This document shows, piece after piece, positions 8,151 through 32,044 of a DNA stretch of 32,044 nt. Positions within the stretch are counted from its first letter, which is position 1, and the number at the start of each line of letters is the position of its first letter. The stretch covers positions 1 through 32,044 of the IMG/VR virus record IMGVR_UViG_3300036791_001909; one strand, written 5' to 3'. This DNA comes from a virus. Under the pieces are notes generated by a model, which worked only from the letters and a program-made list of their open reading frames with translations, was not told the origin of the DNA and made no database searches. The position numbers and the translations under genes were made by a program.

Positions 8151-14901
<6,751 letters not shown>

Positions 14902-14913
14902 TAAGGATTAATT

Positions 14914-15237
14914 ATGAGAGCGTTTAAAGAATCGCAATGTGATGCGTTTCTGAATGCTTTCGGTCAAATAATCCAGACTTCTACGGGAAGTACTTTTACT
15001 GGCATTGTAGAAGTACTTCCCGTTTCTATTGATAGTGGTGGTGGATTTATCGAAAGCACAGAAACATATGTAAGCATGAAAAAAGAGGATATAGCAACTG
15101 CTGACGTGGCACTTAATTCAGTACTGATAATTAATGGCAATAATCAGGTTGTCTATAACATTGAAGATGATCACTCCGGGATTGTGAATGTGTATTATCG
15201 CACGCAAACAGGACAATCATTTTCGGAGGATTACTAA
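14914..15237 (+). CDS. Head-tail connector or completion protein
   Basis: A 107-residue protein with AAGGATTAATT before ATG, directly after the capsid gene, where lambda has FI/FII. It is beta-rich (GIVEVLPVSIDSGGG; VLIINGNNQVVYNIEDD), as is gpFII, and its stop overlaps the next start (TAATG). An FII-like neck protein is the best guess from position and size. A 13-bp inverted repeat lies inside the coding sequence at 14983-15023. Confidence 0.5.
   Translation: MRAFKESQCDAFLNAFGQIIQTSTGSTFTGIVEVLPVSIDSGGGFIESTETYVSMKKEDIATADVALNSVLIINGNNQVVYNIEDDHSGIVNVYYRTQTGQSFSEDY
14983..15023. repeat. 13-bp perfect inverted repeat inside a gene
   Basis: ACGGGAAGTACTT at 14983-14995 and AAGTACTTCCCGT at 15011-15023, with a 15-base loop, within codons 24-37 of the completion gene. 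The mRNA could form a strong hairpin. Each arm contains AAGTACTT. Confidence 0.7.
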
Positions 15238-15629
15238 TGGAGTTAGTCAGTAAAGTACGACAAACAATGAAGCAACTTATTAATGCTTCAAAGAACCTGA
15301 CGGCTTCTCGTGAAAAGGATGTATTTACACAAATTGCATTCGATTATTCATTGAGTAGTATTAATTTCGGCAATCAAAGGCAATCGGCATCATTTGCTAT
15401 TCAGTACCTTGTTAGTCCAAAACCAGAGAGTACTAACACGGCTCCTTCAATTACTTATGATCAGATTATCAGTACCTTTGATGGGCAAAAGTCACAGGCA
15501 TTTAAAGATGCTGGCTTGATTATTCTTTCTTATTCATATGAACAAAGCGACATAGTAACAGATCCCGTATCTGGCTCTGTAAGTCTGTCATTCACGATAA
15601 ATATTCAAGTTACGGAGAAAACAAGATAA
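15237..15629 (+). CDS. Tail terminator/completion protein (gpU-like by position)
   Basis: A 130-residue protein sharing the TAATG junction with the gene before it. It begins with a helix (MELVSKVRQTMKQLINASK) and continues with strands (SASFAIQYLVSP; SLSFTINIQVTEK), the helix-then-sheet order of tail terminators. It lies directly before the tube protein gene, as gpU does before gpV. It would cap the tail tube and join it to the head. The assignment is by order and shape. Confidence 0.5.
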   Translation: MELVSKVRQTMKQLINASKNLTASREKDVFTQIAFDYSLSSINFGNQRQSASFAIQYLVSPKPESTNTAPSITYDQIISTFDGQKSQAFKDAGLIILSYSYEQSDIVTDPVSGSVSLSFTINIQVTEKTR

Positions 15630-15644
15630 CTAAAAGGAATTAAA

Positions 15645-18407
15645 ATGGCAGATATTTTTACAGGTAATGGACTTTCATTATCATATAACACCGATACGGG
15701 GAACAGATCACCACAGGGAATTGGCAACGTACAGATTAATGAAGTGGCAGAGTTTCCCGCACTGGAGATTGAATCAGAGGTAAATCAGTACGACACCTAC
15801 AACAGCACATATAACAGTAAATTACTTGCAGAGAAATCCGCTAATCCACTTGATATTGTTGTTAATTACCTCCCCGATGATTCTACACATCAATTTCTGG
15901 ATGAAGCAGCAGAAAATCAGGATGTGTTCCAGCTAACCATTGCCTATCAGGAAGAGGGCAGCCAGTTAACTTATGCAATGGTGAACGGGGCGATTACCAG
16001 TACTCAACTCTCTGGGGATAAGGATAGCGTAGTAACCAAAACCTATGAATTTACCCCAACTGATGTTGTTGCCCGTAGTCAGGCGATCACGGCCTTACTT
16101 CCGATTTACCAGGGAGATTATGGTGTAGGTTCAAACACAACGGATGTTCCTCAGTACGCCCCAACTATCCCTACGGGTAACAGTTTTATCAAAGTACCTT
16201 CAACACAGGCGGGTAATCCTGCTGGTGCCGACATGATGGGCGTAGGTCTGGTTGATGGCTCGGCTGTCAGTTCCTTTGCAATGACGAAATCGGGAACGCT
16301 AAGTATCTATGCGAAGAATGCCACTACGGCCTGGACTCGTATCTATACCGCTACGCAAATGGACACACGTTATGTTCCTCTCACGCGAACAGTAAACGGC
16401 AAGCAATTAAGTACTGATATTGTTCTGACTCCTGGCGATGTTGGTGCTGTTCCTGTCGGGCGTACTGTAAATGGTCATGCTCTTTCAGATGATGTAGTAC
16501 TTTCGAAAGATGATGTTGGTCTTGGTTCCGTTACTGATGATGCACAGTTGGCGATCAGTCATAACCTTTCAGACCTAACTGATACTGAAGAAGCCCGTAC
16601 CAATCTGGATGTTTATTCAAAGGGTGAAGTCGATACTTTTGGTGAGAATTATGTACAAAAAATCACAACAGTTAATGGCAAGCCATTAAGCACTGATATT
16701 ACTCTTGCAAAAGGGGATGTTGGCTTATCCAGCGTAACGAATGATGCACAGCTAAAAATCACATCGAACCTATCGGATCTTGCGAATATAGCAATATCAC
16801 GTAGTAATCTCGGTTTGGGTTCCCTTGCAGTACAGAACGCTAACGCAGTAGCTATCACAGGCGGTACGGCGGCTTTATCGTCTCTATCCCTATCTACGGC
16901 ATTACCAATAACGAGCGGCGGTACAGGAGCTACTACGGTAGCGGCAGCACGTACAGCTTTAGGGCTTGGCACGGCGGCGACAACAAACATTGGTACATCC
17001 GGTAGTACTGTTCCGTTGCTTTCAACTTTTAACACGTGGAATGGTGTACAAACATTCACAACTACTATTCAGGGTAATGTCTCAGGAACAGCGAGTAATG
17101 TTACTGGCATTGTGCCGATCAGTAATGGCGGTACTGGTGCCAGTACTGCGGATAACGCATTACTTAACTTGAGTGCTATGAAATTCCAACGTACATCACT
17201 TGGTGCCGATGATAATCTAAATGATATTGATGGCTCAAGAGCTGGTTTCTATTATTGCACTTCAAATTCCAATTCTACGGAAGCTAACAATTATCCAGTT
17301 ATACAAGCTGGTTCATTAATGGTTTTGCGTAATGGTGCTAATGGAGATTTTGGTTGCACTCAGATATATTCACCATATAACAGTAATGATATATATATTC
17401 GTACTGGATTTGCTGGAACGACTAATAGTTGGTCCGGTTGGAATGTAATTCTGCAAAAGGGTTCATTTGGTATTGGTGCTGATTTAACAGTTAATGCCAG
17501 TACTCCAATTGCTAACCTGAATGAAAGTACGCCCACTGGATTTTATTACACCGCAAATGAAAATACTTTAGGCGGTATTACAAGTGATACAACCTATTCG
17601 ATCCTAAACCGTGGAGGTCGTCCTACTGCTGTAGCAAGTAAGTATGTACAACAACGTTCATGGGATGGTTGGTATACAGGTACTAATGGTTGGGTCTGGA
17701 AAGAAAATGCATATATGTCGGCACTGAATCAGGGGCAATTTAAAGTACAGGCAAATGGTGAAGCAATTCGTATTGTTTCTACGTCTGGTCAGGCATGTTA
17801 CATAATGGGAATGCTAAATGATACTTATGATGTAGCACAACGTAGATGGTATTTTGGTAACGGTGGTTCGGATAATACCGTAGTTGCGTATAACTCTCGT
17901 ACTAATAATAGTATGGGCTTAGCTGCTGCTGGTAACGTGTATATTCAGGCCCGAAGTGATTCTACTGGTTCCGGTACAGCATATACAACACAATTTCAAT
18001 CTAATGGTACTATTGTTGGGCCACAAGGAACGGTAACACAAACCGCTTCAGATATTCGACTTAAATCAGATGTAAATCCTGCAAATAAAGGTGCTTTAGA
18101 GCGTATTAACGCTATCGGTTGTGTCGAATTTACATGGGATTCTGAACAACGACGCGACCGTGGTTTCATTGCTCAGCAAATCGCAAACATTGATCCTCTA
18201 TATACGTATAAACCGACGGAGGATGGTTATTTGAATTATTCAATTACGGCGTTAATGTCAGATACATTTGGGGCTATCCAGGAATTAGTGGTAATTAATA
18301 GTTCACAGGCGAATGCTATTACTTCTCTTGAAGCCACAATAGAAAGTCAGCAAAGTCAAATCGATGAGCTGAAAGTACTTTCACAATCACTACTCGATAA
18401 TAAATAA
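15645..18407 (+). CDS. Tail tube protein fused to a full tail fibre with S74 chaperone
   Basis: A single 920-residue frame with AAAAGGAATTAAA before ATG. Residues 1-145 are a gpV-type tube protein, paralogous to the next gene: VNYLPDDSTHQ (73-83) and GDKDSVVTKTYEF (124-136) recur there as VNYLPDNEVHQ and GDKDEVVTKTFTL. Residues 250-370 hold tail-fibre repeats (VNGKQLSTD, VNGHALSDD, VNGKPLSTD, each followed by a DVG motif) then SGGTGA repeats (424, 494). Residues 522-603 resemble a pyocin-knob domain (GFYYCTS, GTTNSWSGWNVIL). The C-terminus from Ser802 (TASDIRLKSDVNP, RGFIAQQI) is a peptidase S74 self-cleaving chaperone ending in a coiled coil. If incorporated into the tube, fibres would project along the tail shaft. 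Confidence 0.88.
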   Translation: MADIFTGNGLSLSYNTDTGNRSPQGIGNVQINEVAEFPALEIESEVNQYDTYNSTYNSKLLAEKSANPLDIVVNYLPDDSTHQFLDEAAENQDVFQLTIAYQEEGSQLTYAMVNGAITSTQLSGDKDSVVTKTYEFTPTDVVARSQAITALLPIYQGDYGVGSNTTDVPQYAPTIPTGNSFIKVPSTQAGNPAGADMMGVGLVDGSAVSSFAMTKSGTLSIYAKNATTAWTRIYTATQMDTRYVPLTRTVNGKQLSTDIVLTPGDVGAVPVGRTVNGHALSDDVVLSKDDVGLGSVTDDAQLAISHNLSDLTDTEEARTNLDVYSKGEVDTFGENYVQKITTVNGKPLSTDITLAKGDVGLSSVTNDAQLKITSNLSDLANIAISRSNLGLGSLAVQNANAVAITGGTAALSSLSLSTALPITSGGTGATTVAAARTALGLGTAATTNIGTSGSTVPLLSTFNTWNGVQTFTTTIQGNVSGTASNVTGIVPISNGGTGASTADNALLNLSAMKFQRTSLGADDNLNDIDGSRAGFYYCTSNSNSTEANNYPVIQAGSLMVLRNGANGDFGCTQIYSPYNSNDIYIRTGFAGTTNSWSGWNVILQKGSFGIGADLTVNASTPIANLNESTPTGFYYTANENTLGGITSDTTYSILNRGGRPTAVASKYVQQRSWDGWYTGTNGWVWKENAYMSALNQGQFKVQANGEAIRIVSTSGQACYIMGMLNDTYDVAQRRWYFGNGGSDNTVVAYNSRTNNSMGLAAAGNVYIQARSDSTGSGTAYTTQFQSNGTIVGPQGTVTQTASDIRLKSDVNPANKGALERINAIGCVEFTWDSEQRRDRGFIAQQIANIDPLYTYKPTEDGYLNYSITALMSDTFGAIQELVVINSSQANAITSLEATIESQQSQIDELKVLSQSLLDNK

Positions 18408-18415
18408 ATACAAAA

Positions 18416-18435
18416 GGGATAAATGGACTTATCCC
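18416..18435 (+). terminator. Weak hairpin between the two tube genes
   Basis: GGGATAA / TTATCCC, 7 bp with a 6-nt loop, followed by ATTAATTCAATTCTT. It could attenuate transcription or protect an mRNA end between the fusion and the plain tube gene. Confidence 0.45.
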
Positions 18436-18464
18436 ATTAATTCAATTCTTATAAGGATATAAAT

Positions 18465-18926
18465 ATGGCTATGGATATTTTTGCTGGTGCTAACCTACAG
18501 GTTGAAGTAGGTACAAGTGCTGGCAGTGCTGTTGCAATGGATTTTGAAGTAATCCCGGAAGTGAATACCTTCACGACTTCAGGCTTTGAGAGTACCGTAA
18601 TTACTGTAAAGACATTTAATAATGCATATGATCGAAAATTATTAGGTACTAAATCTATACCTGATATTAGTCTTGCAGTTAACTACTTACCAGATAATGA
18701 AGTACACCAAAAATTAGAACAGCTTGCCGATGATCAGAAACGTTGTCAGATCAAACTCAGCTATTTTGAAGATGCGACTAAAACAACAGGATTCTTTGTT
18801 ATCTATACCTGTTTCGTGTCGAGTACGACTATCGGTGGTGATAAGGATGAAGTCGTAACTAAGACGTTCACTCTTGCTGTAGATGGTGCGGCTATTGATT
18901 CAGGACTGATTACTGAAACTCCATAA
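18465..18926 (+). CDS. Major tail tube protein, gpV-like
   Basis: A 153-residue protein with AAGGATATAAAT before ATG. It shares the tube-fold motifs VNYLPDNEVHQKLEQLADDQ and GDKDEVVTKTFTL with the N-terminal domain of the preceding fusion, so the two arose by duplication. Without an Ig-like or fibre extension, this would be the bulk subunit of the tube. A strong terminator-like hairpin follows at once, as expected after a gene needed in high copy. Confidence 0.85.
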   Translation: MAMDIFAGANLQVEVGTSAGSAVAMDFEVIPEVNTFTTSGFESTVITVKTFNNAYDRKLLGTKSIPDISLAVNYLPDNEVHQKLEQLADDQKRCQIKLSYFEDATKTTGFFVIYTCFVSSTTIGGDKDEVVTKTFTLAVDGAAIDSGLITETP

Positions 18927-18936
18927 TTTAATAAAT

Positions 18937-18965
18937 AAAGGGAAGGTTTTTAACTTTCCCTTTTT
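18937..18965 (+). terminator. Terminator after the tube gene
   Basis: A 10-bp stem (AAAGGGAAGG / CTTTCCCTTT, one G-T pair) with a 7-nt loop and a T5 tail. It probably lets only part of the transcription pass to the chaperone and tape measure genes. Confidence 0.75.
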
Positions 18966-18983
18966 CGTATATGGAGATAACAG

Positions 18984-19283
18984 ATGAATTTAATGGAATT
19001 AAAAAAGAAACTACAACCAGAGCTAAAACCGTTTGAGATCGAAGGCTTCACGCTCTACATCCACCGTCCAAGTGGTCGCGATTTTGCAAGCTGTACTGAT
19101 GTAGCAAATACTCTCATTCTTTGTGTTAAAGATGAAAATGGTGATCCTATTTTCTCTGATGAAGATATTGATGGACGTATTAATGTTAACAGTATTGATT
19201 ATGTTATGCAGGGTAAAATCTACCAGGCAATTATTCAGCTTGTCAGTGACAGTAATCCAGCGGATGAAGTCGAAAAAAAGTAA
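18984..19283 (+). CDS. Tail assembly chaperone, gpG-like
   Basis: A 99-residue protein (GGAG before ATG) between tube and tape measure genes, the place of lambda gpG. It starts with a helix and strand (LKPFEIEGFTLYIHRPSGRDF) and ends VEKK-TAA. The last codons GAA-AAA-AAG contain the slippery heptamer A-AAA-AAG, allowing a -1 shift into the downstream frame. It binds the tape measure protein during tail assembly and is not in the virion, by analogy with lambda. Confidence 0.8.
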   Translation: MNLMELKKKLQPELKPFEIEGFTLYIHRPSGRDFASCTDVANTLILCVKDENGDPIFSDEDIDGRINVNSIDYVMQGKIYQAIIQLVSDSNPADEVEKK

Positions 19284-19672
19284 GAAGTGATAGCCATCTG
19301 CGGTACTTCTGTAAAATGGTCAATAAACGTGGTTTATTACCAGATGAGTACTTTAATTTAGATCCTGAAGTACTCGATATGCTTATGGTTTACGATGCAT
19401 ATATAGAGCCGACAGGTACGCAAATTGAGATGTTGAAACATGCCTATCAGTGCTATTACACCACGATAAGTAATGGGAATCTCACGCCAGAGATACGGCG
19501 TAGTATCAAAGTTGCTGATTTTGATTTTCTGGATGTTCTCAATAGCGATCTCACTACACAAGAAAAATCAGAAGTGAAAGAACTGAAGAAAAAAGAAGCT
19601 CAGGCCAATGATATTAAATCAATCGGTGACGCTATCAGGAATCAGGTATTAGGAAAGAAGAATGGCAAATAA
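18984..19672 (+). CDS. Frameshifted chaperone gpGT-like
   Basis: A join of 18984-19280 and 19280-19672 gives 229 residues: gpG followed by VRSDSHLRYFCK and the T part (MVNKRGLLPDEYFNLDPEVLDML...). The T part contains an ATG at 19316 but has no ribosome site there, so it is most likely made only by frameshifting. The C-terminus is basic and helical (EVKELKKKEAQANDIKSIGDAI). In lambda the T domain recruits tube protein to the tape measure-gpG complex. The end overlaps the tape measure start by 11 bases. Confidence 0.8.
19274..19280 (+). promoter_or_regulatory. Programmed -1 frameshift site A-AAA-AAG
   Basis: The heptamer is in phase (GAA AAA AAG TAA) and a stop follows immediately. A 6-bp stem AGAAGT / ACTTCT (19283-19288 with 19305-19310) lies just downstream and could stimulate slippage. 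The -1 frame is open from here into the downstream T-like frame. The same heptamer drives E. coli dnaX frameshifting. Confidence 0.8.
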
Positions 19673-21881
19673 TAATAGAATCCGTTTTGATATTGACGGG
19701 GATACGTCAGGTTTACAGCGTGCCTTACGACAAGGTACTTCGTCACTTGAAGAATTCGGTTCAAATGCTGGTGGTGTGATTGAAGATCTCACTGGTAACT
19801 TTAGTGGGCTTGCTGGTGGTTTTGGTACTGCAATGACGGGATTAGCGGGGGCTGCTGCAATCGGTATTGGTGGTCTTACTGCACTGGTTAATTCAAGCCG
19901 CGAATATGTTCGTGAAATGAATGAAATCAGTCGTAGTACTGGATTGTCTGTGATGCAGCTACAACAGCTATCAGCGGCGTTTAGTGGCCTTGGACTTGAA
20001 ATGGATAAGTTTGGGGATTTCGACAAGGATACACTTGATAAACTTGGGGATGCGTTCCGTGCTGGCGGTGGTGTATCGGATGATCTTAAAGAATATGGAT
20101 TAAATCTACAGGACTATAACAAGTACCTTAAACAAGCAGATGGCGGTATGCAGGCTGTTATTCATACTTTCTATGCGATGCGGGATGCAGGTAAGTCACA
20201 GGCCGAAATAGTCAACGTCATGGAAACATTGGCGAGTGATTCAAGCCACATGATCAGTACGCTACAGCAGTTCAATACTGAAGCCGATGCAATGACGTAC
20301 ATACAGGGTCAGAACGCCGCCGTGAGTAACGAGGCAGCGGCAAACTATGCAGAGTTCGATAAGAATCTGGATAAGCTGACTACCCGTATCAAAGGTACTA
20401 TCGCTGATGGTCTGAATCCACTCGTAGGGGCAATGAATGCAGTACTGGATGCAGCCAATCAGAAGCCCCATGAAGCAGGGCTATTTGAAGATCTGAACGA
20501 GAAGATTAAAACGTCGAAGGGGTCATTACAGGACTTTTTAGACATATGGGAAAAGCTACGCACCGCCGGGGCTTTAAACTATCAGGGTGCAGCCTTGCAA
20601 ACTGGCAGTATGGATAATGGCAAGCAGAGTGTGTACGCCAATGCTCAGGCCAATCTTGAAGGACTTGTGAACAACTTTCGTAATGACATAGCTACTGTTA
20701 CGGCTCCGCAAGGTGGCTGGAAAGACGAAGCCAAAGAACGTGAGGATGCTCAGAAGAAAGCCGATCAGCTACGGAAACAGGCTGAACAAGCTCAAAAGCA
20801 GGCTGATGCAAAAAGGTTACAGGCACAGCGTAATCTTGAAACGGCACTTGCTCAGGTCGGGGAAGAGGGCTTCAAAGTACGCCTACAGCAGTTCGACAGG
20901 CAACAGAAAGCCCTTCTTAAGACGATTACGGACAGTGCTCAGGTTATTGGAATATCACCAAAGCAATTTAAAGAATATGTCGATGCCGCAAATGCTTCTG
21001 GTACTAAACAACGTAATGATTTAATCAATTCAATGGTTGGTTATCAAGATCCCAATCAGGGTCTGAAAGATACAAATAGTTTAATTTCATCTGGTGTACT
21101 GAACAGTACTCAAAAATCATTCCTAACAGATCAGCAGAGTCAGCGTATCAATGGTGGTAGTCCCTTAAGTTATGATAATACCGATCAATTACTGAAAGAT
21201 AATCAGGATGCCATGAATGCAGAACTTCAGCAGAATGATTTATTACTGAAGGGGCATGAAGATTATGAAAAACGAAAGGCAGAGATTACGGCAAAATATA
21301 ATGCTCATGCTATCGATATCAGTAACCAGAATGCACAGCAACAATTGACTATTTTTAGTGATACGGCCCAATCCTTAAGTGATGGCATGGTAGCAGCGTT
21401 TGGTGAATCGTCAGGGGCAGCACAGGCGGCATTCGCATTGAGTAAGGGCATTACTATTGCTCAGACAGTACTCTCAATACAATCTGCATTAGCACAGACT
21501 CTTGCTACGCCGTGGCCCGCCAGCCTCGCAAATTACGCTCAGGTACTATCGTTAGGTATGAGCATTATCAGTACTGCCAAGGGGGCGGCAAGTGGGCAGT
21601 TCCACGGCGGTGTAGATGAATTGCCAGCAGGTATGGATAACAAAAGTTTTGTACTGAAAGCCGGTGAGCGTGTAGTACAGCCAGAAGCTAACAAGAAGCT
21701 GACTAAGTTCCTCGATACTCAGGAGAAAGGCGGTAGTAATGCTGGAGATATCACCGTCAACGCTCCCTTGATCATTCAGGGAGATGTTGCAGGTGATGAT
21801 AAGAAATTCAATGAAATGTTGAAGAAACACGCTAATAGCGTTACTCAGGCCGTGAGAAGCAGTCAGAGACGGAATACCTAA
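19662..21881 (+). CDS. Tape measure protein
   Basis: A 739-residue protein, by length and place the tape measure, with hydrophobic glycine/alanine stretches (GLAGGFGTAMTGLAGAAAIGIGG, about 49-73), a long coiled coil at about 355-410 (KKADQLRKQAEQAQKQADAK), and a C-terminus with GGVDELPAGMDNKSFVLKAGERVVQP, a motif common near tape measure ends. Its length sets tail length; 739 residues predict a tail somewhat shorter than lambda's. AGGAAAG lies upstream of ATG within the T frame. About 18 GTAC sites by eye. Confidence 0.9.
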   Translation: MANNNRIRFDIDGDTSGLQRALRQGTSSLEEFGSNAGGVIEDLTGNFSGLAGGFGTAMTGLAGAAAIGIGGLTALVNSSREYVREMNEISRSTGLSVMQLQQLSAAFSGLGLEMDKFGDFDKDTLDKLGDAFRAGGGVSDDLKEYGLNLQDYNKYLKQADGGMQAVIHTFYAMRDAGKSQAEIVNVMETLASDSSHMISTLQQFNTEADAMTYIQGQNAAVSNEAAANYAEFDKNLDKLTTRIKGTIADGLNPLVGAMNAVLDAANQKPHEAGLFEDLNEKIKTSKGSLQDFLDIWEKLRTAGALNYQGAALQTGSMDNGKQSVYANAQANLEGLVNNFRNDIATVTAPQGGWKDEAKEREDAQKKADQLRKQAEQAQKQADAKRLQAQRNLETALAQVGEEGFKVRLQQFDRQQKALLKTITDSAQVIGISPKQFKEYVDAANASGTKQRNDLINSMVGYQDPNQGLKDTNSLISSGVLNSTQKSFLTDQQSQRINGGSPLSYDNTDQLLKDNQDAMNAELQQNDLLLKGHEDYEKRKAEITAKYNAHAIDISNQNAQQQLTIFSDTAQSLSDGMVAAFGESSGAAQAAFALSKGITIAQTVLSIQSALAQTLATPWPASLANYAQVLSLGMSIISTAKGAASGQFHGGVDELPAGMDNKSFVLKAGERVVQPEANKKLTKFLDTQEKGGSNAGDITVNAPLIIQGDVAGDDKKFNEMLKKHANSVTQAVRSSQRRNT

Positions 21882-24035: not shown

Positions 24036-27502
<3,467 letters not shown>

Positions 27503-27503
<1 letters not shown>

Positions 27504-30925: not shown

Positions 30926-32044
30926 TCAATATCCCGGATGTACTCTGAAAGCATAAAATAATTCTTCTCTAATGCTTTCAGGTAATACAAAGTTTATTCC
31001 CAAAGGGCTTGGGTGTGGTAGTCTATTACAAATAAGCAGCATGTTGAAAATATCATGATAAATCTGGTCGATTTCTAATCTTTTATACATTAATCCGTTA
31101 ATATAGCGATTTAGGAATCCAGCTACAATATCAGCTATTTGTATTGCTGCACTCTCTTTCGAATCGGTAAATTCAAGTTTGATAGTATCTCTAATATGGA
31201 AATCCGCATTAGGTATAGGAGGAATGTTTGTAGGGTCGATTGTCTTAATATTCTCAATGCAAAAGTTCAGCGTTGTAGAAAACTCATTTTGTGTGTCATG
31301 GAAAAGAATAACATCCTCCCAATTACCGCAATGATATTTGTTTAAACGAGCAAGTAAGTTATAGAAGCAATGAACATGGGCCAGAATAGCTATTGTATTA
31401 TTGTTTGAGTCATAATCAGGGAGTGGTATAAAGCGTTTAAGAGCTTGTTGCTCTCCCATATTCTCTTTTTCTAAGCGATAATCATCGATTGTTTCATCAA
31501 TCATGAGAATCGTTAAGTTCTCATCATTTAATTCTTCATGAGTCTCACTGAAAAAGGTTTTAAGACTATTCATTGTAGCTAACAAATTGTCTTCGGTTGG
31601 AGTCATGCAAGTTTGAAAGAATAGTTTAAAGCATTCTTCAGGTGCTTTTAAAGAAATGAAGTCTGCAAGTATGTTTCTAATGTATTGATTCTTTCCATCA
31701 GCTTCATCTGGCATTGGAGGTACTATCAGATGTGTTACCATGGACGTAGCAATAGTATATTTTTTATCTACTACCTCACACAGAAAAGGCAATCTGTTAT
31801 CAACAATATATTTCACTAAATCAAACATAATCTCAGGCTTTTTAAAGTACACATCCTGCGATTTCAACTCCACTTCTGATATCCCATGTTTTTGTTTAAG
31901 TTCATTTAAAACATGTTCGATATTAATATCTTCCTCTATACCTATTCCTACATGTGCAAAAATTGGTTGAGTGAAAAAACTAAGGTCAAATTTTTTATTA
32001 ATTAGATCACCAGTACTTCCACTTTCATCAAAATAATAATGCAT
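30926..32044 (-). CDS. DUF3800 family protein
   Basis: A 372-residue frame with ATG at the last three bases of the window; the promoter lies outside. The N-terminal YYFDESGSTGD and the late DSKESAAIQIADIVAGFLNRYI are the two hallmark motifs of DUF3800 proteins (an RNase H-like fold with acidic residues). The family is common on phages, plasmids and near defence genes, but its activity is not established. Only about three GTAC sites lie in 1.1 kb, lower than in the tail genes. Its placement after a terminator at the end of the late operon marks it as cargo. Confidence 0.85.
   Translation of the reverse strand: MHYYFDESGSTGDLINKKFDLSFFTQPIFAHVGIGIEEDINIEHVLNELKQKHGISEVELKSQDVYFKKPEIMFDLVKYIVDNRLPFLCEVVDKKYTIATSMVTHLIVPPMPDEADGKNQYIRNILADFISLKAPEECFKLFFQTCMTPTEDNLLATMNSLKTFFSETHEELNDENLTILMIDETIDDYRLEKENMGEQQALKRFIPLPDYDSNNNTIAILAHVHCFYNLLARLNKYHCGNWEDVILFHDTQNEFSTTLNFCIENIKTIDPTNIPPIPNADFHIRDTIKLEFTDSKESAAIQIADIVAGFLNRYINGLMYKRLEIDQIYHDIFNMLLICNRLPHPSPLGINFVLPESIREELFYAFRVHPGY

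Follow-up and report, generated by a model that had tools for sequence, protein, structure and literature searches.

Why does a siphophage carry two tail tube genes side by side, one of which runs on into a complete tail fibre? The question is raised by a viral record, 32,044 bases long and analysed here over its whole length (the window), which contains a siphophage head, packaging and tail module. In this module a fusion gene of a tail tube protein (TTP) and a fibre, hereafter F, occupies positions 15645..18407 on the plus strand and encodes 920 aa, and a plain tube gene of 153 aa, hereafter T, starts after a gap of 57 nt. F is a single uninterrupted ORF with its own SD and ATG, and its extent is supported by full-length homologues and by PHROG, Pfam and self-BLAST matches.

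The initial annotation described F as a tube domain, fibre repeats, a knob and an S74 chaperone in one protein, and profile searches bear this out. PHROG_158 ('major tail protein') matches residues 1-150 (E 1.3e-23), several PHROG tail-fibre families cover residues 268-910 and Pfam Peptidase_S74 matches residues 802-851 (E 1.9e-10). All parts lie on the plus strand. Residues 1-150 (15645..16094) form the gpV-type tail-tube domain, the presumed anchor, as judged from PHROG_158, profile comparison, fold and purifying selection. They are followed by a linker (residues 151-178; 16095..16178), which contains the conserved motif G-YGVGSN..VPQY and is modelled with low confidence at residues 152-175, and by a constant small beta domain (residues 179-245; 16179..16379) recognised by conservation and alignment. 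According to PHROG matches and alignment, residues 246-490 (16380..17114) consist of fibre shaft repeats that vary in both length and sequence. The exchanged region starts at residues 491-604 (17115..17456), a T5/Salmonella-type knob module found by PHROG and homologue matches, which has at most 49% identity with the long tail fibres of Salmonella and Escherichia phages. The Peptidase_S74 intramolecular chaperone (residues 802-851; 18048..18197) has the C-terminal location and the conserved Ser-Asp start of S74-matured fibres; the motif S-D-I-R-L-K begins exactly at Ser802, before which cleavage is predicted, and a C-terminal tail runs on to residue 920.

The N-terminus of F is related to T by several comparisons. 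BLAST of F against its own record returns T (35% identity, E 2.5e-20), and profile-profile comparison of the F and T families gives a probability of 99.3% (E 1.9e-20) over residues 3-138. The motifs VNYLPD..HQ and GDKD.VVTKT, which had been said to be common to the two proteins, are present in both. None of the Pfam tube models reaches threshold on F and therefore the tube assignment rests on PHROG, profile comparison and fold; sequence-profile searches of the PDB with F and T yielded chance matches only. A monomer model of F residues 1-245, calculated with AlphaFold2 from an alignment of 20 loci, has a moderate mean pLDDT of 70. In it, residues 80-91 form a helix next to a beta sandwich whose beta2-beta3 (presumed stacking) loop is poorly defined; then come a disordered stretch at residues 152-175 and a small beta domain at about residues 180-244. 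Foldseek comparison of this model with solved structures ranks 8k36, the lambda tail tube, highest (E 4e-8, TM 0.60 when scaled to the target length) and other tube proteins next, while T has the same top matches, including the lambda tube. The gpV-like fold claimed earlier for this part of F is thus recovered in silico, and residues 1-150 join the gpV-type proteins by sequence kinship as well as by fold, with low confidence in the loop. A chance similarity of the F N-terminus to tube proteins is ruled out by PHROG, profile comparison and fold. As the tube fold also occurs in terminators, in distal tail proteins and in T6SS Hcp, fold alone cannot fix the position of F. No donor was found for the F region at residues 165-252 and the constant domain at residues 179-245 is without a match in other phages; it is conceivable that docking is the function of this domain. 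Among predicted structures, BFVD entry A0A6J7WFB0, an uncharacterised protein of 651 aa from an uncultured phage, matches the F N-terminus and is possibly another long tube-domain fusion.

T (18465..18926, plus strand), presumably the bulk subunit of the shaft, is a plain tube paralogue directly downstream of the fusion, as had been claimed. It scores above the cut-off of the Pfam tube family PF08813 (1.1e-6), matches PHROG_158, has the tube fold with a match to the lambda tube and is located before the tail assembly chaperones and the tape measure gene. The surrounding genes, all on the plus strand, are those of a tail module: a tail terminator or tail completion protein (15237..15629), assigned from its position and from a syntenic Vibrio phage gene annotated as tail-completion; the tail assembly chaperones TAC and TAC-T (18984..19672; Pfam, PHROG); the tape measure protein (19662..21881), annotated in the window; and a gpJ-like central tail-tip fibre (24444..27503), recognised by domain matches, in which the tail module ends. 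No side-fibre gene other than F is seen in the window. Outside the tail module, a prohead protease (S78) and an HK97-type capsid protein form one gene of 598 aa at 13105-14901, a region that is split into two ORFs in a related locus (L066), and a DUF3800 gene (372 aa) lies on the minus strand at 30926-32044, past the lysis genes at the window end.

The tube-fibre fusion beside a plain tube gene is real and recurrent. In more than 20 contigs the terminator is followed by the fusion, then by the plain tube gene, the assembly chaperones and, last, the tape measure. With the fusion as query we found 12 viral contigs, mostly over the full length, and the plain TTP as query led to genomes of Pluralibacter, Cedecea, Citrobacter and Phytobacter. 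The terminator, a query neutral to the fusion question, returned 22 loci, the intact ones of which all read terminator, fusion, plain TTP. Among 392 Enterobacteriaceae genomes 12 are positive, each with both tube copies and all with this gene order. At the sensitivities used, no match was found in E. coli complete genomes (distant blastn) or in plasmids (tblastn), and in a class-wide genome sample the query genome itself was the sole match; the clade therefore looks confined to other Enterobacteriaceae. Related Vibrio phages have the terminator and a single TTP, without the fusion. The two-gene arrangement is hence not private to the window but fixed in a prophage clade. For an artefact of sequencing or assembly that joined two genes, or for a single chance fusion in a prophage undergoing decay, we found no evidence; independent full-length homologues occur in isolate genomes and in metagenomes and are under purifying selection, which excludes a joined-gene sequencing error and leaves next to no room for either version of this explanation.

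A few records depart from the common pattern. Escherichia phage DCP80 (PQ671644.1), filed under Tevenvirinae, carries in its first part a siphophage packaging and tail module with the TTP-fibre fusion, but rIIA is present twice as inverted copies and the record is probably chimeric or misassembled; we do not use it as key evidence of an isolate with the arrangement. The only disrupted relative (L023:6411-7514) has a deletion which removes the fibre, the plain TTP and the chaperones, so that the F tube domain, some 169 aa long, continues in frame into the tape measure protein. In one Cedecea assembly the fusion gene is split over two contigs, with the break within the tube domain.

A maximum-likelihood tree of the tube domains of 29 F/T pairs, one from each of 29 loci, places the F domains in one clade and the T proteins in another, with 100/99 support. 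The two separate clades indicate that F and T split once and then travelled together, which is best explained by a split before the radiation of the prophage clade; in a tree with an outgroup, either F or T may be the ancestral copy. Values of dN/dS of about 0.03-0.28 show purifying selection on the F tube domain. In 365 of 378 pairs this domain has diverged further than T. The presumed ring-stacking loop, which is among the most conserved parts of T (0.90), is less conserved in F (0.67). The high divergence of the F domain would also suit a position outside the tube, with the domain docked peripherally, like a collar, around the terminator or the tip and the tube fold merely retained; in T5-like phages a collar, a protein of its own that encircles a TTP-like ring, does fasten the fibres (PMC10713586). 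We consider peripheral docking quite improbable, however, as tube-like elements, the C-terminal strand motif GDKD.VVTKT among them, are retained in the anchor and purifying selection acts on it.

Conservation along the fusion is very uneven. Residues 1-245 are conserved, most of all at 161-240 in the identity profile, with the constant domain (179-245) ranking as the most conserved part of the protein. Beyond about residue 490 most fusion homologues are unrelated even where the first 480 residues are similar. Between the window and the near-identical phage of locus L004, identity of F is 95-100% over residues 1-240 and mostly 0-35% after residue 480. Peptidase_S74 is present at the C-terminus of the fusion in 18 of 27 loci, the rest having Phage_tail_C_2 or no known end, and some loci have a small gene between the fusion and the TTP, either for a Caudo_TAP chaperone (L069, L065) or a 75-aa ORF (L009, L034). 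Both the identity profile and the several chaperone and terminal types thus show the constant anchor and hypervariable distal part of a fibre protein. In two groups of loci the fusion is short and the distal part has a gene of its own. One group is L065/L066, where F ends in a proximal subunit of the T4 gp34 type (41-50% to Phynn/RB43-type fibres) and the next genes encode a distal subunit resembling gp37 and a Caudo_TAP (Tfa-type) chaperone. In L063/L064 the gene after F encodes a lateral tail fibre of 951 aa which has 55% identity over 99% with those of vequintaviruses. The presence of established lateral-fibre types on the F N-terminus is our strongest argument that this N-terminus is a fibre mount. 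With an anchor under purifying selection and a fibre that is swapped wholesale, the tube paralogue reads as a covalent mount for lateral fibres.

The best explanation of the locus, to which we assign a probability of roughly 0.6, is that F is a lateral fibre protein whose anchor is a diverged tube copy, placed in a minority ring or rings at an end of the shaft, and that T builds the bulk of the shaft. The paralogue would have derived from the plain tube gene T by one old split, and its tube domain would insert into the tube stack as a minority subunit. F would most likely sit in one or a few dedicated rings at a shaft end, beside the terminator or the tip; that the F gene lies between those of the terminator and T is a hint of the neck, and the T5-family TTMP ring with its fibres at the tip makes the tip an equally reasonable site (PMC10713586). 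The flexible linker (residues ~152-175) may free the chain, so that three chains from neighbouring subunits could wind into a trimeric fibre, matured by the S74 domain or, in relatives, by a separate Tfa-type chaperone. The distal fibre would be swapped between phages and so track variation of the host surface, while the anchor and the domain at residues 179-245 stay. We infer that F is incorporated into the virion at low copy in such a ring position, and that it trimerises, is cleaved and binds a receptor. The mismatch between a hexameric tube ring and a trimeric fibre had been put forward as a puzzle. It appears soft: by our estimate a linker of ~24 residues spans tens of angstroms, which could be enough for three neighbours to meet, and subunits of one ring or of adjacent rings could in this way feed one trimer, so that the mismatch would not be a strong objection.

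Whether F occupies dedicated rings or is mixed with T bears on its expected amount, and the two genes differ in their expression signals. E. coli-type optimal codons are fewer in the F tube domain than in T at 28 of 29 loci after amino-acid matching, with a mean difference (T minus F) of +0.09; the raw values are 0.57 for T and 0.43 for F. In the window, codon optimality is 0.53 for the major capsid gene and 0.35-0.47 for presumed low-copy genes. Upstream of the plain TTP only, the window has a hairpin (18416..18435, plus strand) with the arms GGGATAA and TTATCCC around the loop ATGGAC, which presents A-N-GGA. It is located ~40 nt before the T start, and a second GGA, which is the SD, lies ~10 nt before the start. 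With a stem of at least 7 bp, a GGA-loop hairpin is present upstream of T at 21-22 of 29 loci with 20 different 5' arms (shuffles average 0.6, maximum 3), and upstream of F at none of the 29. Its layout is like that of CsrA/RsmE-type or phage translational operators. The terL gene of the window is also preceded by a similar hairpin. After T follows an intrinsic-terminator-like hairpin (18937..18963, plus strand; z -3.2), and terminator-like hairpins are found after T in most relatives. By their codons and hairpins F and T look differently expressed, which fits T as the bulk and F as a minor subunit. These features suggest that F is a low-copy subunit, codon use and evolutionary rate being weak proxies and the loci mutually related.

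The initial annotation had instead placed F and T in a mixed tube with fibres as bristles along its shaft. In such a tail, F would co-polymerise with T within or between rings over the whole length, and each tail would bear many fibres. In favour of this, F retains the tube fold and the motifs that it has in common with T, and F and T distances are correlated (r 0.86), though this is expected from co-inheritance alone; SPP1 gp17.1* (PMC8718954) and lactococcal TpeX (PMC6669499) are partial precedents. However, the forms in SPP1 and TpeX have one common core, whereas identity between the cores of F and T is just ~35%; F evolves faster, with a less conserved stacking loop, and its codon optimality and lack of a leader hairpin make it look low-expressed relative to T; and six trimer-forming chains per ring all along the shaft would probably be crowded. 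Co-polymerisation along the shaft is therefore a minor possibility. Its fuller version, in which trimeric receptor-binding fibres stud a non-contractile shaft and the T leader hairpin sets the F:T ratio, seems unlikely to us; if true, it would mean side-on multivalent adhesion. The low-copy signs and the gene order fit a single ring of F and are perhaps still compatible with sparse mixing; they suggest that a dedicated end ring is more likely than studs along the shaft.

A building block of the tail tube thus seems to have been turned into a mount for host-gripping fibres. The mounting of lateral fibres is known for few siphophages, and T5-like phages need three separate proteins for it (ring, collar and fibre), while here a duplicated tube subunit appears to give ring and mount in one chain. 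In different prophages the F anchor has borne T5-, T4- and vequintavirus-type fibres. If our reading is true, it offers a simple path for phages to gain a new fibre system in the course of evolution, and the linker suggests how the symmetries of fibre and tube may be reconciled. It would also add a fibre anchor which annotation pipelines may misname 'major tail protein' or 'tail fibre'.

The fusion was suspected from the outset of being a non-standard arrangement, and this agrees with the literature, where a search made largely in open-access journal papers gave no direct precedent for a TTP-fibre fusion or for shaft fibres in a siphophage. Nearest in kind are TpeX, SPP1 gp17.1* and the TTMP/Ltf of T5. 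In the 936-group lactococcal phages, MTP with TpeX is like F a tube subunit that presents a host-binding module outward, and binding of TpeX to host cells has been shown (PMC6669499). However, TpeX is a frameshift extension of a single tube gene with one CBM, whereas F is a separate, diverged paralogue with a whole fibre and chaperone; it starts at its own ATG and SD, not by programmed frameshifting, and T is a separate gene downstream. SPP1 gp17.1* and the Ig/FN3 domains of lambda gpV resemble F as C-terminal decorations of a tube protein, and SPP1 has two coexisting tube forms (PMC8718954). Unlike F, these decorations are small domains on the same core, without exchanged fibres and without S74/Tfa maturation.

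In T5 and DT57C, the TTP-fold TTMP ring at one end of the tube is the site that holds the trimeric lateral fibres (PMC10713586), a role like the one that we propose for F. In these phages the collar LtfC connects a ring and a fibre that are distinct proteins, whereas F would unite a ring-type domain and a fibre in one polypeptide. The TTMP ring lies between the last tube ring and Dit; the F gene is upstream of T and outside the tip module. Lactococcal NPS collar fibres share with F a constant, ring-forming N-terminal domain and an exchanged fibre/CBM part (PMC6669499). The NPS N-terminus is BppU-like, which contradicts our idea that it might be MTP-like (PMC6669499), whereas that of F is tube-like by profile and fold, with BppU absent among the matches listed. 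The hairy tail of the jumbo phage CBB, with whiskers along the shaft, has the morphology that a bristled tube would show, but the CBB tail is contractile and its whisker genes are not identified (PMC5259590). The S74/Tfa side fibres of T5 (Ltf), T4 (gp34-gp37) and vequintaviruses resemble the other end of the protein, their distal parts being directly homologous to those of several fusion loci. To our knowledge, the N-terminal anchors of T4 gp34-gp37 and of the vequintavirus fibres are not tube proteins. The N-terminal anchor of the T5/DT57C lateral fibres is likewise not a tube protein (PMC10713586). Decorated tube proteins, TTP-like end rings and S74 fibres are thus each known, and what appears to be new is their fusion as the fibre mount of a whole clade.
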